This document shows positions 2,572-59,833 of a stretch of 64,000 nucleotides of DNA, in pieces. The first letter of the stretch is position 1. Each line of letters begins with the position of its first letter. The position numbers and the translations under genes are program-made. The notes beneath the pieces were generated by a model. The model searched no databases. It saw only the letters and a program-made list of their open reading frames with translations, and had not been told where the DNA came from. Origin of the DNA: Candidatus Barnesiella excrementavium (GTDB taxonomy: Bacteria; Bacteroidota; Bacteroidia; Bacteroidales; Barnesiellaceae); assembly GCA_019115485.1 (NCBI GenBank), contig DXDM01000014.1:1-64000 (forward strand). Direction: 5' to 3'.

Positions 2572-3297
2572 TTATAGTTGTGTATCGCTTTTGGGGTATT
2601 TGTCTCGTTTTTTCTCTTTGGGTCTCTCGGGGGCTCCGGCCACGACAATCACGATTTCGCCTTTGGGTTCATGCTCGGTGAAGTGGGCGATGAGTTCGTC
2701 GAGGGTGCCTCGCACCGTCTCTTCGTGAATCTTGGAGATTTCGCGGCTCACCGAGGCCTCGCGTTCGCCGCCGAAGGTCTCTTTGAACTGGACCAGCGTT
2801 TTGAGCAGGCGGAAGGGCGATTCGTAGAAGATAATGGTGCGCGGCTCGTCGGCCAGTTGGGCCAACCGGGTGGCGCGACCTTTCTTTTGGGGGAGGAACC
2901 CCTCGAAGCAGAATTTCTCGTTGGGCAGCCCCGAGGCTACCAGGGCGGGCACGAAGGCGGTGGCTCCGGGCAGACACTCGACGGGGATTCCCCGGCGCCG
3001 GCATTCGCGCACCAGCAGAAAGCCCGGGTCGGAGATGGCCGGTGTGCCGGCATCGGAGATGAGGGCAATGGTCTCGCCCCCTTCGATACGGGTCACGATG
3101 CCCTCGACCGTCTGGTGTTCGTTGAACTTGTGGTGCGACTGCATGCGGGTGCGAATGTCGTAGTGTTTGAGCAGGATACCACTGGTGCGGGTATCCTCGG
3201 CCAAGATGCAGTCAACCTCCCGCAGCACGTTGATGGCCCGGAATGTCATATCTTCGAGATTGCCTACCGGCGTAGGTACTACATAGAGCTTGGACAT
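2572..3297 (-). CDS. rsmI: 16S rRNA (cytidine(1402)-2'-O)-methyltransferase
   Basis: LYVVPTPVGNLEDMTFRAINVLREVDCILAEDTRTSGILLKHY and SDAGTPAISDPGFLLVRECRRRGIPVECLPGATAFVPAL motifs. Confidence 0.95.
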   Translation of the reverse strand: MSKLYVVPTPVGNLEDMTFRAINVLREVDCILAEDTRTSGILLKHYDIRTRMQSHHKFNEHQTVEGIVTRIEGGETIALISDAGTPAISDPGFLLVRECRRRGIPVECLPGATAFVPALVASGLPNEKFCFEGFLPQKKGRATRLAQLADEPRTIIFYESPFRLLKTLVQFKETFGGEREASVSREISKIHEETVRGTLDELIAHFTEHEPKGEIVIVVAGAPERPKEKKRDKYPKSDTQL

Positions 3298-3306
3298 GGT
3301 GCTGCG

Positions 3307-4314
3307 TTACAGAAAGTGTTTTTGTACGATTTTCATAAACTCGGCCACCTCGGGGTTATCCATGTCCCAGTGCAGGTCGTTGAGGATATAATCCTCGGCC
3401 TCGTCGTAGGATTGCATGGCGTCGATGAGGGCCAGGGTCTCGTTCATGCGAATGTCGCTGTTCCCGAACAGTTCGCGGCGGAACCGGAAGCGGTCGTTCA
3501 GGCTCAGGGCCTTGCGCAACTCCTTGGCCTGCTGGCGTTGCAGCGCCTCTTCGAGGGTGACAGGGCCAGCCGTGTCGTCGGCCGGGAGGTCGGCTACGGG
3601 AGTATCTTCGTAGTCGGTGTCGTCGTAGTCATCGACCTCGTCGTCATATTCGGGTTCGTCGTTCTGTGCGGTCGACAGCTCTTCGTCGCTCATCTCCTCC
3701 CAAGGATAGAGCGGCTCTTCCCGGTCGGGCATTTCGGTAGCGGGTTCGGCCGGGGTTTCATCGGTTGCCTGTGACTCTTCGGGAGTCTCCTCCTTGCGGG
3801 GCAACTCTTCGACCTGTTCCTCAGGGGTTGGTTCGACCGCAGGTGCCGGTGCGGGTTCCGGTTCGTACACGGGTTGAGGCGCAGGCTCGGCCGGGGTTTC
3901 CGGCTCGGTAGCTGTCGAACTCACGGTATCCTCTTTTGCCTCGGCGGTGTGGGAGGCCGATGGAGTCACCGGCATGTCCCAAGGCTCTTCCGCGAAATCG
4001 GCGGGTTCCTCTTCGGACGTGGCCTCCTCCTGGTGTGCTTCGGCTTCGGGAACGGGCTCTTCTGCTTTCCCGGCCTCCCAATCCCGGTTATCGGCCGAGG
4101 CGGCCTCGGCAAAAGGTTCGTGATTTTCTATTTCGGCCCAGAATTGGGGCGACCGCAGTTCGTGGGTCGAACGGTCGATGGCTTCGGCTTTCTCCCGGGC
4201 CAGCTTCAACAGAATGCCGGGAGCGGCGTTTCCCGCCTGCTCGATGACCAGCAGCAGTTCCCGCAGCTCGCCCAACTGGGTGATGATGTATGCGATGCGA
4301 CTGTCTCGTGACAT
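3307..4314 (-). CDS. Hypothetical protein with long acidic/Pro-rich central region
   Basis: 335 aa ORF; ordered N-terminal helix region, E/P/A-rich middle, compact C-terminal domain; upstream TATCTTTG motif on the minus strand. Confidence 0.7.
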   Translation of the reverse strand: MSRDSRIAYIITQLGELRELLLVIEQAGNAAPGILLKLAREKAEAIDRSTHELRSPQFWAEIENHEPFAEAASADNRDWEAGKAEEPVPEAEAHQEEATSEEEPADFAEEPWDMPVTPSASHTAEAKEDTVSSTATEPETPAEPAPQPVYEPEPAPAPAVEPTPEEQVEELPRKEETPEESQATDETPAEPATEMPDREEPLYPWEEMSDEELSTAQNDEPEYDDEVDDYDDTDYEDTPVADLPADDTAGPVTLEEALQRQQAKELRKALSLNDRFRFRRELFGNSDIRMNETLALIDAMQSYDEAEDYILNDLHWDMDNPEVAEFMKIVQKHFL

Positions 4315-4474
4315 AAATTCGGTATTTTGTATTCAGGGATAGCGGGGACAAGCGCAGCGGCAAACGGGAAACACGGTTTTCAACATTTGCCTGTGCCTGA
4401 CGGTCTCCTATCTTCCACAAAGATATACAAAAATAACCGATGTACGCCGAGAGCTGAAAAAATTTAGAGGTCGG

Positions 4475-14997: not shown

Positions 14998-15172
14998 TAT
15001 CTTTTCATAAGATAAGATGTAGTTCGGCCTGACCACATTTGAAAACTGCGTTTTCATTTGGTTCTGCTCTCACCTTTCGCTATCTTTTCATAAGATAAGA
15101 TGCGGTTCGGCATAACCACATTTGAAAACTACGTTTTCATTTGGTTCTGCTCTCACCTTTCATTATCTTTGC
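14998..15172 (+). repeat. Dispersed promoter-bearing intergenic repeat, locus A (two 83-bp units)
   Basis: TATCTT-start at 14998, 15081 and 15164 (period 83); each unit has GAAAACnnnGTTTTC and CTCACCTTTC; ends TTTG-N20-TATCTTTG. Confidence 0.85.
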
Positions 15173-15198: not shown

Positions 15199-15378
15199 AT
15201 GAATACGTTACCCGAAGATCCGATGATTCTGTTTTCGTTTATCAACACGAAACTGCGCGACAATTATGCCTCGCTCGATGCCTTGTGCGACGATATGCAC
15301 ATCAGCAAGGCCGATTTGGTGGCCAAGTTGGGGAGTGCGGGATTTGAATATAATCCCAGTCAAAACAAGTTCTGGTAA
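15199..15378 (+). CDS. DUF4250 domain-containing small protein
   Basis: MNTLPEDPMILFSFINTKLRDNYASLDALCDDMHISKADLVAKLGSAGFEYNPSQNKFW; the ORF's longer N-terminus is repeat-derived. Confidence 0.85.
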   Translation: MNTLPEDPMILFSFINTKLRDNYASLDALCDDMHISKADLVAKLGSAGFEYNPSQNKFW

Positions 15379-37192: not shown

Positions 37193-40100
37193 TTATTGCG
37201 TGATGACTACGATTTTTTTGGCGGGAGTGGCTGTTGAGCCGGCCTCTGTTTCGAGGTATGCCCGGCAGTCATACTGTCCGGCCGGTACCCGCTGTCCGTT
37301 GTTGTCGAGCAGGTCCCAGACAAGGGGGAAGGGGTTGCCCGAGGTCTCGCGGTACCATACCTCTTCGCCCTGCATGTCGGTGACGGAGATACGGGCCCTC
37401 TTCACCTCGCCGAGGTCGTTGCCTTCGAGGTCCTGGCAGGAGAGAGTGGCTTGTTCGGTCACGGGATTCTCGTCAATCGATAGGCTGTATCCTGTCGGTG
37501 CATTGTATATCTCGAATGCCGTGGTTGCCTCGGACGAGTTCCCCAATGAATCGAATACTTTGAAGGTGAGCGTGTAGCTGCCGTCGTGTAATGCAGGGAG
37601 CGGATAGATGAATTCACCTCCCGGCGTATTGCCGTCGATTGAGGGGTGATAGTAGCGTGCCGTGTTCTCTTCGACTGAGGCTCCGTTGAGTAACAAGGTC
37701 ATCTGCCGGCCCAGCGTGTTGCCGCTCCATATCCCCGACGGGTCGGAGAATCGGCAGAGGAAGGTGGCGGGAGTCTCTATCCGGTCACCTTCGGTAAACT
37801 CCTCGTCGGTAAACCCGATAAAGGTGATCTCGGGCCCTTGTGTATCGGCCGAGCCGGTCTCAGTTGCAGTGCCAATCAGGAGCTGCTCGGTGTAGCCGTT
37901 GGCTTCCTGTCCCGACGGGTCGCAGGCATAGAGGTTGAGCAGGGCCGATTTCCCGGAGTGGGAGTTGCCGGGCGGAAGAGTGAACGTCAGACTGAATTGC
38001 CCGTTTTGTACGGAGCCTTTCCCGGTTGTCAACAGGTCGGGACGATAGTTGTAGGTCCAGGTCTTGCTGTCTTGATGAGCCAGCGTCGTGAAACGTTTCT
38101 CCTCGTCGTAGAGCGAAAAATAGATTTCACCGTTGAAATCGGTAATCGGTTCGCCTTGAGGGCTTCGCACCTCGCCTTCGACCGTATAGCTTTGACCCGA
38201 TTCCATTTCGGTCGGGCTCGTGGCGCTCTTCCCGTTGATGCGGGTGACTTGCAGTTCATATCGTGGGTAGACGAGGCGCAGGGCCGGGTCGCCGAGGAGT
38301 ATGTAGTTGAGTTTGTTCTTGTCAATTTCGGAGTTGAAGTCACGCTTGGCTTTTTTCAGTATGTCACCTATACGCAGGTATTCGCCGTTGGTGTCGCGCG
38401 ACAGGAGCCATTTCATCAATCTGCGGTTTATTTTGTCGTTGCCGTCGGTGTAGACCACCCGGGTGGTGGTTATCAGGGCAATAGCTCCCGCCGTGGGGTT
38501 GAGAAACACGGTTTCACCGGCCGAGACTTCCTCGGCATTGTCGAACTGAGAATAGTTGCATGTGATGGTGATGAAGAGGGGCAGGCGATTGTTGGTGAGA
38601 TTGTCCATCTCGTGTCGGGAAATCAGCCCCTCGCCGGTGAATCCTATTTCGGAGTCATTGTGGCCGATGTAGTTGAATACCAGCATACCATCGTCGAAAT
38701 ATTTCATCAACTCCCGATGAGCCTCAGGGTATTTTTTGTTTTGGGGATTCATGTAATAGGAGTCGATGAATATCTTGTCGGCCCTGAATCCCAGTTTGGG
38801 AGAGCCGGTATTTTTGAGCAGGAGGGTGTCGCTCCCCAGGTCGGCCTGCTTGGTGTGGACTGCTTCGTCTCCATCGTCGGCCGCTATGCAGATGTGGTTT
38901 TTCCAGGGAGACAAATCGGTGTTCTGCACATATCGGTAGAGCTTGTCCACGACCCGTCGGGCGTCAATGAGCGACGACACCGGGAATCGGCCGATACCCA
39001 GGCACACCTTATCGACCTTGATTTCTTCGCCTGAGTTGTCTTCTAAAAATCCAAAATAGTCTTCCATCACAAACGATTCCCGTTCGTCGATGCTTGTCTT
39101 CGACTGATAGGTGAGCAGTTGGTTGCACTGCGGTGAGTGCAGCGATGCCATCGAAGCCCGATTGTCGTAGGAGCCGTCGCCGAAGAGGAGCAGGTATCGG
39201 GGGCGGGTTGCTTCGCTGGTAGCCCGGTCATAAAACATTTTCATTAACCGGCGGTAGGCTGTGGCGTCGGGGGTTCCCGATGAGAATTCATTGAAAATCT
39301 TTTCCTGTTCGACCACGATTACGGTCAGCCCCTCGTCCCGGTGCAGCTGGGCTACCCGTTCGGCTTCGCTTTGCAAGGCGGCCGGAGTGATGATGGTGAG
39401 GTCGGCAATGTCGAGTGCGTGAAGGTTCTGGTTTTCCACTCGTTTGACGAAGGCCGGGACGGAAAATTCATGCTCCGGGTCGAAGGCGACGTATTCGCGC
39501 AACCGGGTATCGACGGGCGAGAAACTTGTTGTCTGATTTTCAAACGTGGTCGATATTTCCTGAGGGGCATAAGGGGTGGTAATGTCCCATACCCGGGTGC
39601 CGCCGGAGGTGTTGGCTATTTGATAAAGGTCATTGCTGGTGCGGTTGATAAACCGGAAGGCAACCTGCCCGTCGTAAAGTTGCAGTTTGCGTTGATAGTT
39701 GAGCCTGATGTAGTCGAGCCGTGCGCACGAGGTAGCTCCCGTAGAGGTGTAGCTGAGGCTTATGGTCGACTCTTCATCGGCCTGGTTGTAGGTTTTGATG
39801 GGTGTGGCTTGTCGCAGAAATTCGTGCGAATCGTAATACTTGGATATGCGGTTGGTTGTGCCGGTGGGGAGTTCCGAGCCATTGTACGAAATGTGTATGT
39901 AGCCTTCGCCGTCGCTGATTTTGGCACCGAACGACACCCGTATCTTGATGGGGGCGGGTTGGGCTCCGGGCAGGTGAAAGTAGAAATCTTGATTGGGGTT
40001 CTCCAAAAAATCTTCCCCGAAGAAATTCTGCCCGGTTTTGCCTACCGAGACCAGCTCCTGTTCGTGTACCGTGTAGTCGTCGAAGGTCGTGACGGGGGTT

Positions 40101-40597
40101 GCGTCGCTCGGGACAGGCCTGTCGACGGTGGATAAAAGAGTTGCTGAAACCTCTTTGTCGGTCAGGAAGTAGTAGGCCTGGGTCGAATAGGGGTGCAGCC
40201 GGTGCGTGAATTCGCTGTTGGCGCCGTCGAACTCCCATCGGGTGGTTCCGGTTGAGTAGAAGTAGAGCCGGTTGTTGTGACGCCAAAGCGGAATTTGCGG
40301 CAGGTCGTCGATGTAGTCGTCCTGGTTGGAGAAGAGTTCGTCGATGACCAGTCCCCCATAGCCGAAGAGTTTTACTTTCGAAGGGTCTGAGAAACCCCAT
40401 GCCGTGAGCGTGTCGTAGGGTATCTGGTAGATGCCTGCCTGAGTGGTGGCTATCTTTACCCAGTTGCCGTCGGCCAAAACCGAGCGGGTCGCGTAGTCGT
40501 CGCTGCTTCGTCCGTATACCGAGGCTGTCGAGGCGAAGATTGTGACAAGTATGGTGAATATGATTTTTCTAACGATTCCAGTATAAGGCATTTGCAA
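37193..40597 (-). CDS. porU: Type IX secretion system sortase PorU (C25 peptidase), copy 1
   Basis: RYLLLFGDGSYDNR, DGMLVFNYIGHNDSEIGFTGEGLI, LPLFITITCNYSQFDNAEEVSAGETVFLNPTAGAIALITTTRVVY; CTD-like C-terminus ending TPAKKIVVITQ. Confidence 0.93.
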   Translation of the reverse strand: MQMPYTGIVRKIIFTILVTIFASTASVYGRSSDDYATRSVLADGNWVKIATTQAGIYQIPYDTLTAWGFSDPSKVKLFGYGGLVIDELFSNQDDYIDDLPQIPLWRHNNRLYFYSTGTTRWEFDGANSEFTHRLHPYSTQAYYFLTDKEVSATLLSTVDRPVPSDATPVTTFDDYTVHEQELVSVGKTGQNFFGEDFLENPNQDFYFHLPGAQPAPIKIRVSFGAKISDGEGYIHISYNGSELPTGTTNRISKYYDSHEFLRQATPIKTYNQADEESTISLSYTSTGATSCARLDYIRLNYQRKLQLYDGQVAFRFINRTSNDLYQIANTSGGTRVWDITTPYAPQEISTTFENQTTSFSPVDTRLREYVAFDPEHEFSVPAFVKRVENQNLHALDIADLTIITPAALQSEAERVAQLHRDEGLTVIVVEQEKIFNEFSSGTPDATAYRRLMKMFYDRATSEATRPRYLLLFGDGSYDNRASMASLHSPQCNQLLTYQSKTSIDERESFVMEDYFGFLEDNSGEEIKVDKVCLGIGRFPVSSLIDARRVVDKLYRYVQNTDLSPWKNHICIAADDGDEAVHTKQADLGSDTLLLKNTGSPKLGFRADKIFIDSYYMNPQNKKYPEAHRELMKYFDDGMLVFNYIGHNDSEIGFTGEGLISRHEMDNLTNNRLPLFITITCNYSQFDNAEEVSAGETVFLNPTAGAIALITTTRVVYTDGNDKINRRLMKWLLSRDTNGEYLRIGDILKKAKRDFNSEIDKNKLNYILLGDPALRLVYPRYELQVTRINGKSATSPTEMESGQSYTVEGEVRSPQGEPITDFNGEIYFSLYDEEKRFTTLAHQDSKTWTYNYRPDLLTTGKGSVQNGQFSLTFTLPPGNSHSGKSALLNLYACDPSGQEANGYTEQLLIGTATETGSADTQGPEITFIGFTDEEFTEGDRIETPATFLCRFSDPSGIWSGNTLGRQMTLLLNGASVEENTARYYHPSIDGNTPGGEFIYPLPALHDGSYTLTFKVFDSLGNSSEATTAFEIYNAPTGYSLSIDENPVTEQATLSCQDLEGNDLGEVKRARISVTDMQGEEVWYRETSGNPFPLVWDLLDNNGQRVPAGQYDCRAYLETEAGSTATPAKKIVVITQ

Positions 40598-46261: not shown

Positions 46262-49200
46262 TTATTGCCCTGTGACACAGAGTTTTTTGGAGCGGGTAGC
46301 CTCGTGCTCGTTGTCGGTCGATATGATGGCCTTGTAGAGGTATATGCCGCCGGGCACCCGGTTGCCGCTGCTGTCGGTCAAATCCCAGTTGATGGGGTAT
46401 GACTGATACATGTCGGAGAGCCCTTGGCTTGTGTGGCGCCACACCTCCATACCCATGAGGTTATAAACCGATATGGTCACGTTGATGACGGCATCGGGAC
46501 GGTTGTGACGGAGGTAGAAGTTGGTCGATGTGCTGGCCGGGTTCCGGTCGGCATAGAGGTCGTAGATGACCGGTTTGAGACCTGCTTTCACCGAGAAGTA
46601 GAGCTCGATTTCCGACGAGTTGTTTTCGGTGTCCCACACCTTCAACCGCAGGCTGTGGTCGCCTTCGCTCAATCCGCTCAGGGGGTATGCGATGAATCCG
46701 CGGCCGAACTCGCCTACCGTGGGCTCGAAATAGGAGGAGACGTCGGTGTAGAGGGTACGGTTGTCAAGCAAGACAGTCATCTGGTGGCCTATTCCGGCAT
46801 CGGAGATGTTGATGCCCGAGGGGTCATACACCTCGGCGATGAGCAGGGGCGACTCGTTGACCTGGTCGCCGTTCTTGAAATCGTCGGAGTTGAGGTAGGC
46901 ATAGTATATTTCGGGCCCGTCGAAGTCGTCGTTCGAGCTGTCGTTGAATCCGCCCACGATAAAGTTCGATTCGTTGCCGCTGCCCTCCTGACCCGCATCG
47001 TTGTAACAGTAAAGGTTGATAAGTCCCCGGTCGTCGGCAAAGTTGATTTCACGGGGGACCTTGAACGCGATTTCAAACTGGCCACCCGTGATGGAGTCTT
47101 TCCCTACATAGAGGCGGTTGCTTCGCTCCGAGAACTCAAAGGCCTTGCCCTCTTCACCATATCCGTGGGTAACGACCGAGACTTCCGAATCGTAGACCGT
47201 GGGGCAGATGATTCCGTTGTAGTCGGTCGCCTTTATGCCTTGCGGAGTATAGACTTCTCCCTTGATGGTAACCGAGTCGCGAGCCTGTATGGTGGGCGTC
47301 GTCTGGGTGATGTCGTAGCCGTTGATTTCGGTTATCTTGATTTGGTACTCGGGGTAGAGCAATTTTAAGGCCGGGTCGCCCAGCAGGGTGTAATTCAGCT
47401 TGTTGCTGTCGGTTTGCAGTATGCTGCATTTGGCCTTGCGCAAGATGTCGCCCAACCGGGGATAATTCCCGTTCTCGTCGCGGGTGAATATGTTCTGGGC
47501 CACCCCTTTGTTGAGGTAGTGGTTGTCGCTGATGTAGACCACCCGCGTGGTGGTGATGAGGGCAATGCCTCCGCCGCTGGGGTTGAGGCACAGGATTTCA
47601 CCGGCCGAGATATCCTCGTGGTCATAGCGGCCAAAGTCGCAGGTGGCCGTGATGAAGAGAGGAAGCCGTTTCAGGTACAGGGACTGTATGTCGGTGATGT
47701 TGAGCAGGTTCTCGTGGGTCCAGGCCACGGTACTTCCGTGACCTATGTAGTCGATGACAAGTACTCCGTCGTCGAGTACCTGGAAAAGTTTCTTTTTGGC
47801 CGAGGGATAGGTGCGACCCGTCGAGGATATTTCGGCGGTATAGGCGTCGGTATAGATTTTATTGATGAAACAGTTGGCATCGCTGTTTTCCAGAATGGCA
47901 CAGATGTCCTCGGCCTGCGACATGTGCTCGGCGTAGTTCTCGTCGTCGGCCACGATGCACACCTGGTTTTTCCACGACCCTTTGTCGGTATTGGCCATGT
48001 AGTTGGTCAGTTTGGAGACTACGTCTTTGGCCTCTTGTTCGCTCTTGACGGGCAATCGGCCTACACTTATCCGCAATTTGTCGGAGGCGATGCGCACGCC
48101 CGAGTCGTCGTCGAGGAATCCGAAATAGTCGTCGGTCGTATAGGAGGCCCGTTCGTCTGCGCCGCTTCCATGCTGGTAGGTGAGCAGGGTGGGGTATTTT
48201 ACATACTTGCCGGTCTCACCGATTTTGCGGTTGTCGTAGAGTCCTTTCCCGAAGAGCAACAGATACAGTTGCTTGCCGGTGATTCCTCCCTCACGGTCAA
48301 AGAACATCTTCATCAGTCGGCGGTAAGCGGTAGCGTCGGGGGTGCCCGACGAAAACTCGTTGAATACCTGGGTGTGGTCGATGACCGCTACCTCCATGCC
48401 ATCGGTTTGGGCGTGCAACTGGGCTATGCTTTGGGCATAGGACAGATACTCTTTGGGAGCAAGAATCACCAGGTCGGGGGTAGCCATGCCGTGCAGGTTC
48501 TGGTTGGGTACGGTCTCGACAAAGGTGACCCCGGTCTGGGTTGCCTCGGTGTCGAAAGCCACATACTCTTCGTGCGCCCGGGTGGGGACGAAGCGGGCAT
48601 TTCCATTCGTGACGGTGGGGATAATATTGACGGGACTTTGGGGGGTCGAGATGTCCCAGATACGTGTCGTAGCCGTGTAGCCCGGCAGGTTGTAACAGCT
48701 GTTTTGGGGCACCTCTTTCAGCCGGAACTGGATACTGCCGTTGTAGAGTTGCAGTTTGCGCTTGTAGTTGAAACGGAAATAGTCGAGCCGGGCCAACGAG
48801 AGGCTCCCTCCGTTTTGGCGGAAGAGGAGCGAGAAGGTCAGCTCTTCGCTGTCGAGGTAAATCTCTTTGAGCGTTGAGGTGGTCTCATAGAAGTCGTAAG
48901 AACTCTCGGAGCCGCCTGGAATACGGTCGGACGTGCTTTCGGGGAGTGTCTCGCCTTGATAGGTGAATACCAGATTGCTGCTGCCTCCTACCACTTTGGC
49001 GCCGAACGAGGTGCGCAGTTTTACCGGTGCACTGTTGTCGACACCGGGCATCTCGAAGGTAAAGTTGCGCGAGGTGGTATAACGGAAATCTTCGCCCAGG
49101 AAGGTGCGACCCGTGGCTCCCGGCGAGTATGAGTCCTGCTCATATACGGCGTGTTCGTCAAACGAGGTGATGTCGGTCATACCCGCCGAGGCGCCGCCGT

Positions 49201-49690
49201 TGCGGTCGGGCAGCACGGCGGTGGAGCTTTTGCTGTCGGTAAGAAAATAGTAACCGGCCGTGGAGTAGGTATTCTGTTCATGGACATACTCCTGGTTCTT
49301 CTCGTTGTAGCGCCAGGTGATGGGGCCTTGTGCGTAGAACAGAATCTTGGAGCCGGTGTGTAGAATGGGTATTTGGGCCAGGTCATCGGTGTCGGTATCC
49401 GAGAAGGTCTCGGGCAACATGGCTCCGCCGTATCCGAATACGGTGACGGCAGCGGGGTTGGAGAAACCCCATTGGCTCAACTCCCGATAGGTTATCTGGT
49501 GTATCCCCGATTCATAAATGGCAATCTTTACCCACAGTCCGTCGGCCAGTTGCGACCGCGAGGCATAGTGGCTGGCATTGAGGGCTTGCAGCGGTGCCGC
49601 TGCAAACAGGGCAATTCCCACGCACAGCCACACGAGCAACCTGGACAGCGGGTTTGTTGAAAATATGGAGTATGGTGTAGTTGCTTTCAT
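46262..49690 (-). CDS. PorU-like C25 family sortase, copy 2
   Basis: Start MKATTPYSIFSTNPLSRLLVWLCVGIALFAAAPLQALNASHYASRSQLADGLWVKIAIYESGIHQITYRELSQWGFSNPAAVTVFGYGG parallels copy 1; DGVLVIDYIGHGSTVAWTHENLL and LPLFITATCDFGRYDHEDISAGEILCLNPSGGGIALITTTRVVY; CTD-like end ATRSKKLCVTGQ. Confidence 0.88.
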   Translation of the reverse strand: MKATTPYSIFSTNPLSRLLVWLCVGIALFAAAPLQALNASHYASRSQLADGLWVKIAIYESGIHQITYRELSQWGFSNPAAVTVFGYGGAMLPETFSDTDTDDLAQIPILHTGSKILFYAQGPITWRYNEKNQEYVHEQNTYSTAGYYFLTDSKSSTAVLPDRNGGASAGMTDITSFDEHAVYEQDSYSPGATGRTFLGEDFRYTTSRNFTFEMPGVDNSAPVKLRTSFGAKVVGGSSNLVFTYQGETLPESTSDRIPGGSESSYDFYETTSTLKEIYLDSEELTFSLLFRQNGGSLSLARLDYFRFNYKRKLQLYNGSIQFRLKEVPQNSCYNLPGYTATTRIWDISTPQSPVNIIPTVTNGNARFVPTRAHEEYVAFDTEATQTGVTFVETVPNQNLHGMATPDLVILAPKEYLSYAQSIAQLHAQTDGMEVAVIDHTQVFNEFSSGTPDATAYRRLMKMFFDREGGITGKQLYLLLFGKGLYDNRKIGETGKYVKYPTLLTYQHGSGADERASYTTDDYFGFLDDDSGVRIASDKLRISVGRLPVKSEQEAKDVVSKLTNYMANTDKGSWKNQVCIVADDENYAEHMSQAEDICAILENSDANCFINKIYTDAYTAEISSTGRTYPSAKKKLFQVLDDGVLVIDYIGHGSTVAWTHENLLNITDIQSLYLKRLPLFITATCDFGRYDHEDISAGEILCLNPSGGGIALITTTRVVYISDNHYLNKGVAQNIFTRDENGNYPRLGDILRKAKCSILQTDSNKLNYTLLGDPALKLLYPEYQIKITEINGYDITQTTPTIQARDSVTIKGEVYTPQGIKATDYNGIICPTVYDSEVSVVTHGYGEEGKAFEFSERSNRLYVGKDSITGGQFEIAFKVPREINFADDRGLINLYCYNDAGQEGSGNESNFIVGGFNDSSNDDFDGPEIYYAYLNSDDFKNGDQVNESPLLIAEVYDPSGINISDAGIGHQMTVLLDNRTLYTDVSSYFEPTVGEFGRGFIAYPLSGLSEGDHSLRLKVWDTENNSSEIELYFSVKAGLKPVIYDLYADRNPASTSTNFYLRHNRPDAVINVTISVYNLMGMEVWRHTSQGLSDMYQSYPINWDLTDSSGNRVPGGIYLYKAIISTDNEHEATRSKKLCVTGQ

Positions 49691-49767
49691 CGTTTTTATA
49701 TAACGTGAGAAAATCGGGTTTATTGCGGAGCAACCGAAGAGAACTTTTTCCCATGAATCGCATGGCA

Positions 49768-49943
49768 TATATTCGAATAATACAGAGGTACCGGTTCGGT
49801 ATAGCCCAACTTGAAAACTTTGTTTTCGTTTGTCTTTGCACCCGCCTTTCACTATATTTGGATAATATAGGATGCGGCTCGGCTCTGTCAAACTTGAAAA
49901 CTTTGTTTTCGCTTGCCACTGCACTCGCCTTTCACTATATTTG
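49768..49943 (+). repeat. Dispersed promoter-bearing intergenic repeat, locus B (two units)
   Basis: TATATT-start at 49768, 49853 and 49936 (periods 85 and 83); TTGAAAACTTTGTTTTC hairpin in each; CGCCTTTCACTATATTTG end in each. Confidence 0.85.
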
Positions 49944-49981
49944 TTCGGTGATAAATCACGGCAAGCTATAAATTGACGACA

Positions 49982-50329
49982 ATGAAAAAGAATAACGATT
50001 GGAAAGATCGACTGAATATAGTCTATTCGACAAACCCCGATTTTCAGTTTGAAAGGGACGAGGAGGTGGAGCCCGATACGCTCGAACCGTCCAAGCAGCA
50101 ACTGCGCATCTCGCTCGACAAGCGCAACCGCAACGGGAAATCGGTCACCCTCGTGACCGGCTTCGTGGGAACGGCCGACGACCTGCACACGTTGGCCAAG
50201 AAGTTGAAGACCAAGTGCGGCGTGGGTGGCTCGGACAAGGAGGGCGAGATTTTGATACAGGGCGATTTCCGTCAGAAGGTGTTGGATATTTTGTTGGCCG
50301 AGGGCTACCGTGCCCGCATAATCGGATAG
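49982..50329 (+). CDS. SUI1/eIF1-family translation initiation factor
   Basis: KQQLRISLDKRNRNGKSVTLVTGFVGTADDLHTLAKKLKTKCGVGGSDKEGEILIQGDFRQKVLDILLAEGYRARIIG. Confidence 0.95.
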   Translation: MKKNNDWKDRLNIVYSTNPDFQFERDEEVEPDTLEPSKQQLRISLDKRNRNGKSVTLVTGFVGTADDLHTLAKKLKTKCGVGGSDKEGEILIQGDFRQKVLDILLAEGYRARIIG

Positions 50330-56088: not shown

Positions 56089-56233
56089 GTATTTGAATGT
56101 TTGAAAACGGAGTTTTCATTTGTTTCTGCACTCACCTTTCGCTATATTTGGATAATATAGGCTGCGGTTCGGCATAACCAAATTTGAAAACGGAGTTTTC
56201 ATTTGTTTCTGCACTCACCTTTCACTATATTTG
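56089..56233 (+). repeat. Dispersed promoter-bearing intergenic repeat, locus C (one full unit plus a 5'-truncated unit)
   Basis: TATATTTG at 56143 and 56226 (period 83); TGAAAACGGAGTTTTCATTTG in both; TTTG-N20-TATATTTG. Confidence 0.85.
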
Positions 56234-59734: not shown

Positions 59735-59749
59735 TTCACTTTCCTTTTA

Positions 59750-59833
59750 GAGCATATAGGAATCAACTCGGTCAAGCCTCACTTGAAAACTTTGTTTTCC
59801 GTTTGTCTTTACTCTCGCCTTTCACTATATTTG
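59750..59833 (+). repeat. Dispersed promoter-bearing intergenic repeat, locus D (single unit)
   Basis: CTTGAAAACTTTGTTTTCCGTTTG-N20-TATATTTG; CGCCTTTCAC spacer shared with locus B. Confidence 0.8.

Follow-up and report, generated by a model that had tools for sequence, protein, structure and literature searches.

The DUF4250 gene in the 64,000-nt stretch of DNA from the genus Barnesiella analyzed here (the window) is preceded by an 83-bp unit that stands twice in tandem and whose gene-proximal end reads like a promoter. A first-pass annotation had described this unit as a mobile or copied promoter cassette. The locus thus raises the question of what kind of sequence the unit is: an ordinary regulatory region, or an element that moves and carries a promoter with it. 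Below, G000 denotes the window's genome and G001 to G008 denote other Barnesiella genomes.

Repeat units in the window

As seen in Table 1, the window harbors seven units on the plus strand, while the minus strand has an eighth copy, which is decayed. At the DUF4250 locus, the exact 83-bp tandem units and the partial third one that had been annotated start at 14998, 15081, and 15164, coordinates confirmed by the boxes at 14998-15005, 15081-15088, and 15164-15171, whose spacing is exactly 83 bp. The final copy reads, precisely as had been claimed, TTTG, 20 nt, TATCTTTG, and then 27 nt to the ATG at 15199, and the related loci reported at 49768-49943, 56089-56233, and 59750-59833 are likewise present. 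Some generalizations of the first-pass annotation had to be narrowed. The layout of TTTG, a 20-nt spacer, and an octamer, attributed to the units, fails in the final unit of the SUI1 locus, where the -33 box is CTTG. The common orientation, with all units upstream of plus-strand genes, holds for the seven units, whereas the minus-strand eighth copy precedes a gene of that strand, so that the shared orientation in the window merely mirrors gene orientation. The promoter assignment is weakest for the copy at 59750-59833, which is 221 nt away from the start of the M20 peptidase gene.

The DUF4250 protein is 98 to 100% identical in Barnesiella An55 and An22, and the repeat-free An22 has an identical TATCTTTGCACCCC at the native promoter position of this gene. 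The stem motif of the unit had 23 matches in the window against 5.0 (standard deviation, 2.4) in shuffled sequences, and genome-wide there were 77 matches (36 + 41) against 9 (4 + 5) for the reversed pattern, counts far above those expected by chance. The G008 orthologue of the minus-strand copy (4349-4420) reads TATCTTTGGAAGATAGTG, with no hairpin between, and is possibly the footprint of a lost unit. Apart from the repeat, two long minus-strand open reading frames of the window (37193-40597 and 46262-50188) share several DNA stretches of 70 to 80% identity at a spacing of approximately 9.07 kb, which suggests that they are paralogous genes.

Table 1. Features of the repeat loci; coordinates without a prefix are window positions
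Feature	Coordinates	Strand	Remarks
Unit 1, upstream copy before DUF4250	14998..15080	+	83 bp; left box TATCTTTT at 14998-15005
Unit 2, DUF4250 locus	15081..15163	+	83 bp; hairpin from AAGATA (from 15092) to TATCTT (to 15169)
Predicted -33 box TTTG, DUF4250 locus	15140..15143	+	Within 3' arm of hairpin; consensus in PMC7366714
Predicted -7 box TATCTTTG, DUF4250 locus	15164..15171	+	Common to repeat end and native promoter position
DUF4250 protein gene (59 aa)	15199..15378	+	PF14056, 9.7e-27
Unit before SUI1 gene	49770..49860	+	TATATTTG type, box 49853-49860; 5' edge decayed
Final unit before SUI1 gene	49861..49943	+	Box TATATTTG 49936-49943; 38 nt to ATG 49982; -33 box CTTG
5'-truncated unit before glycosyltransferase gene	56097..56150	+	
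Final unit before GT2 glycosyltransferase	56151..56233	+	Box TATATTTG 56226-56233; 21 nt to ATG 56255
Single unit, TATATTTG type	59748..59833	+	Followed on the plus strand by M20 peptidase gene, start 60055
Eighth, decayed copy	4349..4420	-	Left box TATCTTTG intact; right box degraded to TATCCCTG; precedes minus-strand ORF 3307-4314
CRISPR array (L157)	G008:C1:573256-578129		Adjoins cas1 and cas2; repeats at one end split or capped by the element
xerD with upstream array	G008:C1:1727928-1728857; G000:C34:19147-20305; G003:C12:74309-75482; G007:C5:9703-10788		

Copy number and taxonomic range

A sequence model (R1) was built from 26 copies and used for genome searches, a scan that the first-pass annotation had proposed. 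The model gave 105 matches in the window's own 2.68-Mb genome and 46 to 141 matches in each of eight other Barnesiella genomes. Beyond the genus, the repeat was patchy in a sample of 247 Bacteroidales genomes, being present in 12 of the 173 genera and in several of them at high copy number, and a phylum-wide sample of 398 genomes added nothing but weak matches in a single further genome, again from this order. A literature search in an incomplete library found no description of this 83-bp repeat family.

One copy, matching the consensus at 89% and with TATCTTTG on both sides, was observed at positions 3000-3080 of a 46-kb Phocaeicola massiliensis plasmid record (L272, OY726013.1), a possible vehicle for spread between genera. 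Copies also occur in gut "phage" scaffolds, but these are unverified and unannotated and one has chromosomal orthologues in Barnesiella, so that none of them is taken to be carried by a phage; no exact match to the repeat was present in the viral contigs searched.

Position relative to genes and promoter layout

The placement of the repeat was evaluated in G008, a single-contig congener of which 2.68 of 3.08 Mb was analyzed, with genes called by a simple home-made script. The first-pass annotation had suggested testing for enrichment upstream of start codons, and copies scattered without regard to gene starts or orientation would have spoken against its reading. In this sister genome, 44 of the 47 arrays lead into a downstream gene on the same strand (expected fraction, 0.548; p = 5e-9), and the distance from the end of the last box to the start codon is mostly 15 to 110 nt, with a median of approximately 30. 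The three exceptions comprise one gene-caller error (orthologue L017), one decayed copy, and one CRISPR insertion. The downstream genes include argS, dapB, EPSP synthase, rsgA, rpiB, a sulfatase, and transporters, and because they are functionally mixed, the repeats do not make up a single-function regulon.

The 3' arm of the element terminates in TTTG-N19..21-TAnnTTTG, placed as far from the gene as the native -7 box. TAnnTTTG is kept in 58 of 64 final units but in only 32 of 49 internal ones (Fisher p = 0.0017), and 56 of the 64 final units have TTTG-N19..21 before this box. The consensus of the Bacteroides sigma-ABfr promoters is a -33 TTTG and a -7 TAnnTTTG (PMC7366714), so that the proposed fit to the housekeeping promoter of Bacteroidetes was borne out. 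In this respect the final units agree with that consensus (PMC7366714) and look as they would after selection on the gene-proximal promoter; judging from the sequence, the repeat is probably active as a promoter. Within the genes of G008, TATCTTTG occurs about 100 times with no repeat copies there; the restriction of copies to promoters may be due in part to purifying selection.

We also observed a repeat array directly upstream of the XerD recombinase gene in all four Barnesiella genomes compared. This array is a lead and not evidence.

Insertion at the -7 box

The 83-bp units are dispersed and insertion polymorphic, and insertion at a TAnnTTTG box leaves one box on each side. At locus L025, only the native box is present in six genomes (G001, G002, and G005 to G008), the empty site in G008 being AACAAATATTAT-TATCTTTG-CATACG. 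The same locus in G000 reads AACAAATATCCC-TATCTTTG-GAGAAG...CTTTTAT-TATCTTTG-CATACG, which corresponds to an 83-bp insertion of one unit, and there are two units (approximately 168 bp) in G004 and three (approximately 252 bp) in G003, with all of these insertions ending at the native -7 box. The DUF4250 gene has empty sites with the same box in An22 and two others, and further empty and filled pairs, again with the same box, were found at loci from G007 and G001 and at L068. Such presence or absence at orthologous sites is the polymorphism of a mobile element.

The second line of evidence comes from CRISPR repeats. The G008 array that adjoins cas1 and cas2 contains 61 exact copies of a 47-bp repeat that includes TATCTTTG, and another repeat of this array is split at TATCTTTG by exactly 83 bp, with ...CAAATTTG-TATCTTTC on the left and TATCTTTG-ACTTATT... 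on the right. Junctions of the same kind between element and CRISPR repeat are present in G000, G003, and G004, and two were found in G006. These insertions indicate that the target is the box itself and not a protein gene. The insertions at L025 and in the CRISPR repeat are the clearest, while many or most of the filled loci have diverged flanks. Overall, the comparison of empty with filled sites and the insertion within a CRISPR repeat agree with the cassette interpretation of the first-pass annotation, from which the exact targeting of the -7 box was absent, as were the full-length covarying hairpin and the exchangeable tips described below.

Unit spacing within arrays is most often 83 bp, and 73 to 88 bp in other subtypes. 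Units that are adjacent in an array are more alike than units from different arrays, and the upstream units degrade while the last one stays intact. Orthologous arrays of G000 and G008 differ in the number and type of their units, which therefore turn over.

Hairpin structure of the unit

The sequence from AAGATAG to CTATCTT(TG) forms one imperfect hairpin, which is kept by compensatory changes and, as single-stranded DNA, is more stable for the bottom strand. The 7-bp stem that had been noticed before is present, although it is only the tip of this hairpin, which covers the whole unit. Covariation among 108 full units, with no structure assumed, placed seven of the eight strongest column pairs on one antiparallel diagonal. 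When an explicit hairpin of 27 pairs was evaluated in 26 units, 89% of the cells were paired and 35 were doubly changed, compared with 13.7 in shuffles (0 of 500 as high), and the covariation score was 0.187 against 0.110 when shuffled and at most 0.057 when the partner was slid. Inward of its 7-bp outer stem (AAGATAG/CTATCTT), the hairpin has an unpaired 5x5 region that leads to a short stem; after a variable extra base there follow another stem and then the tip. The tip is GAAAAC-nnn-GTTTTC and is a different palindrome in types B, C, and D.

On folding as single-stranded DNA, the bottom strand was more stable in 93 of the 108 units (p ~1e-16), with no difference in shuffled controls; unit 2 of the DUF4250 locus (15081..15163) had z values of -3.9 for the top and -5.0 for the bottom strand. 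Some of the compensatory changes could derive from template switching at imperfect palindromes, but the conserved unpaired internal loops argue against this process as the sole cause. We also considered the left box and the adjacent AAGATA as a true palindrome, a pairing that was rejected given that discordant units favor the right box (24 units) over the left box (5 units) as the partner of the inner arm. By the same count, the right box belongs to the element.

Proposed mechanism and candidate enzymes

We consider it likely that the repeat is a non-autonomous mobile hairpin element of Bacteroidales, broadly akin to REPs, MITEs, and mobile promoters, which inserts site-specifically at TATCTTTG or TATATTTG, the housekeeping -7 box. 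The gene-proximal copy would serve as the working promoter, at which RNA polymerase would start. An insertion at the -7 box would rebuild both the -33 and the -7 box, and because of this the gene would not be silenced and would stay on. As the insertion would also regenerate its target box, new units could insert or duplicate head to tail, with a probable contribution of ordinary tandem duplication, which would account for the exact 83-bp arrays; after such head-to-tail growth, the upstream units would decay. The bottom strand, when folded, may be the mobile form, and a recombinase or transposase acting in trans may join it to the box. More tentatively, and with less chance of being right than wrong, the element can be pictured as showing a new kind of single-strand, site-specific mobility, in which the folded bottom-strand hairpin is joined into a -7 box and the promoter is the attachment site and is rebuilt; the layout resembles that of attC sites but without an integron, and a host recombinase, for instance a Xer protein, might be the enzyme.

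Several enzyme classes were searched for in genomes with and without the repeat, and none fits. Of 13 repeat-rich genomes, 12 have no Y1 HUH transposase, among them all four Barnesiella genomes tested, yet it is present in 12 of 14 repeat-poor ones, a pattern across 27 Bacteroidales genomes that may reflect genome size or lineage. The Y2 HUH transposase (Y2_Tnp, IS91 type), searched for in carriers and noncarriers, does not fit. No reverse transcriptase (retron, group II intron, or diversity-generating retroelement) was found in the window's own genome or in most carriers, and no repeat-bearing genome tested had an integron integrase above the TIGR02249 cutoff.

Alternative explanations

The alternative that survives best, though we regard it as unlikely, is a classical DDE-type MITE with AAGATAG/CTATCTT ends and an 8-bp TATCTTTG target duplication, moved by a host transposase. 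Such an element would fit the box on both sides of each insertion and the terminal inverted repeats, and no other enzyme class was found. However, the flanking duplication is always the same box, TATCTTTG, whereas DDE transposases do not usually duplicate a single fixed 8-mer; the right box, which pairs with the inner arm, belongs to the element; and the terminal repeats AAGATAG/CTATCTT are part of a full-length hairpin in which covariation covers the entire unit, including the tip. In addition, the 2.68 of 3.08 Mb of G008 contained no convincing longer, autonomous version with the same ends and a gene between the arms.

An ancestral, nonmobile promoter with a regulator binding site, kept alike by selection as a regulon, is improbable. 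The strong bias in position and orientation, the conserved palindrome TTGAAAAC-nnn-GTTTTC at the -33 region, and the conserved final boxes would suit a regulon, but the empty sites contradict it, and the finding of 83, 168, or 252 inserted bp at the same promoter in different genomes, the insertions inside CRISPR repeats, the replacement of the palindrome by unrelated ones in types B, C, and D, and the functional mixture of the downstream genes argue for an element that inserts.

Slightly less probable again is that the units are attC sites of the integron type, whose movement would depend on a tyrosine recombinase and its folding of the bottom strand. By folding and covariation, the repeat resembles such sites (PMC2727003) in its 7-bp outer stem, its unpaired 5x5 spacer, an inner stem that includes a variable extra base, its exchangeable tip, and its bottom-strand preference. 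Against this, the integrase searches of repeat-bearing genomes gave nothing above the cutoff, the ends are AAGATAG and CTATCTTTG and not AAC/GTT, and gene cassettes are missing; XerD does occur, its gene preceded by an array, but it is a universal protein.

We give as little credence to a structured RNA spreading in cassette form, be it a small RNA gene or a regulator in the 5' leader. The full-length covarying hairpin is compatible with an RNA, which, with the upstream box, would begin near the stem. Nonetheless, there is no G-U preference, G-T and A-C cells being about equally common (144 versus 135), so that nothing points to a sense RNA; the bottom strand folds better; the predicted start is downstream of the final hairpin, which is thus not transcribed from its own promoter; and there was no match to an Rfam covariance model. 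Least credible of all is an origin from REP/RAYT or IS200/IS605 sequences, with a Y1 HUH transposase as the mobilizer. The hairpin, intergenic location, high copy number, and single-strand preference are reminiscent of such elements, and atypical REPs of Bacteroidetes are known (PMC6006769), but Y1_Tnp is missing from 12 of the 13 repeat-rich genomes yet present in 12 of the 14 repeat-poor ones, and the consensus foot is AAGATAG, with no GT[AG]G foot.

Significance

In Barnesiella, the mobile hairpin repeat has roughly a hundred copies per genome, nearly always on a -7 signal, and the promoters of many genes, including essential ones, seem to have been rewired. If the proposed mechanism is true, a selfish repeat spares its host by inserting at promoters and taking their place, so that genes stay on, and it thereby standardizes the promoters of host genes; in a single genome, copies of one mobile sequence would drive about 50 transcription units, essential ones among them. 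Mobile-element activity and gene regulation could then be studied at the same sites, and a promoter that occurs without an insertion and with one, two, or three units offers a comparative system for the effect of a mobile promoter on expression.

Comparison with known systems

Putative mobile promoters are a statistical class of repeated promoter regions. The repeat resembles them as a promoter-bearing sequence copied to many genes and differs from them in being a defined element with a target site, a structure, and insertion polymorphism. The nearest described element in Bacteroidales is BrickBuilt, a promoter-bearing MITE of Porphyromonas gingivalis that has been related to putative mobile promoters (PMC4596501). 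Both are intergenic and dispersed in Bacteroidales, with tandem subrepeats and promoter elements. However, BrickBuilt has a 23-nt tandem core, IS5-like end repeats (GAGACC...), 19 copies, bidirectional promoters, and varied target duplications, and its description mentions neither insertion at a -7 box nor a hairpin of the full unit (PMC4596501).

REP and REPIN sequences, with their RAYT/TnpA_REP proteins (PMC6006769, PMC3116915), are likewise short, intergenic, hairpin forming, nonautonomous, and high in copy number. They are 20 to 65 nt long with a GT[AG]G foot and a Y1 transposase, whereas the repeat is 83 bp long and box specific, carries a promoter in its 3' arm, and lacks Y1. The attC sites (PMC2727003) share with the repeat a folded bottom strand, a 7-bp outer stem, an unpaired spacer, an extra base, and a variable tip, but they come with an integron integrase, AAC/GTT ends, and gene cassettes, none of which were found for the repeat. 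The sigma-ABfr promoters (PMC7366714) have the same -33 TTTG and -7 TAnnTTTG, although these ordinary promoters are not mobile repeats. Given the mismatches with REP, attC, and DDE elements, we place the repeat outside those families, among sequences of the mobile-promoter or MITE-like kind.
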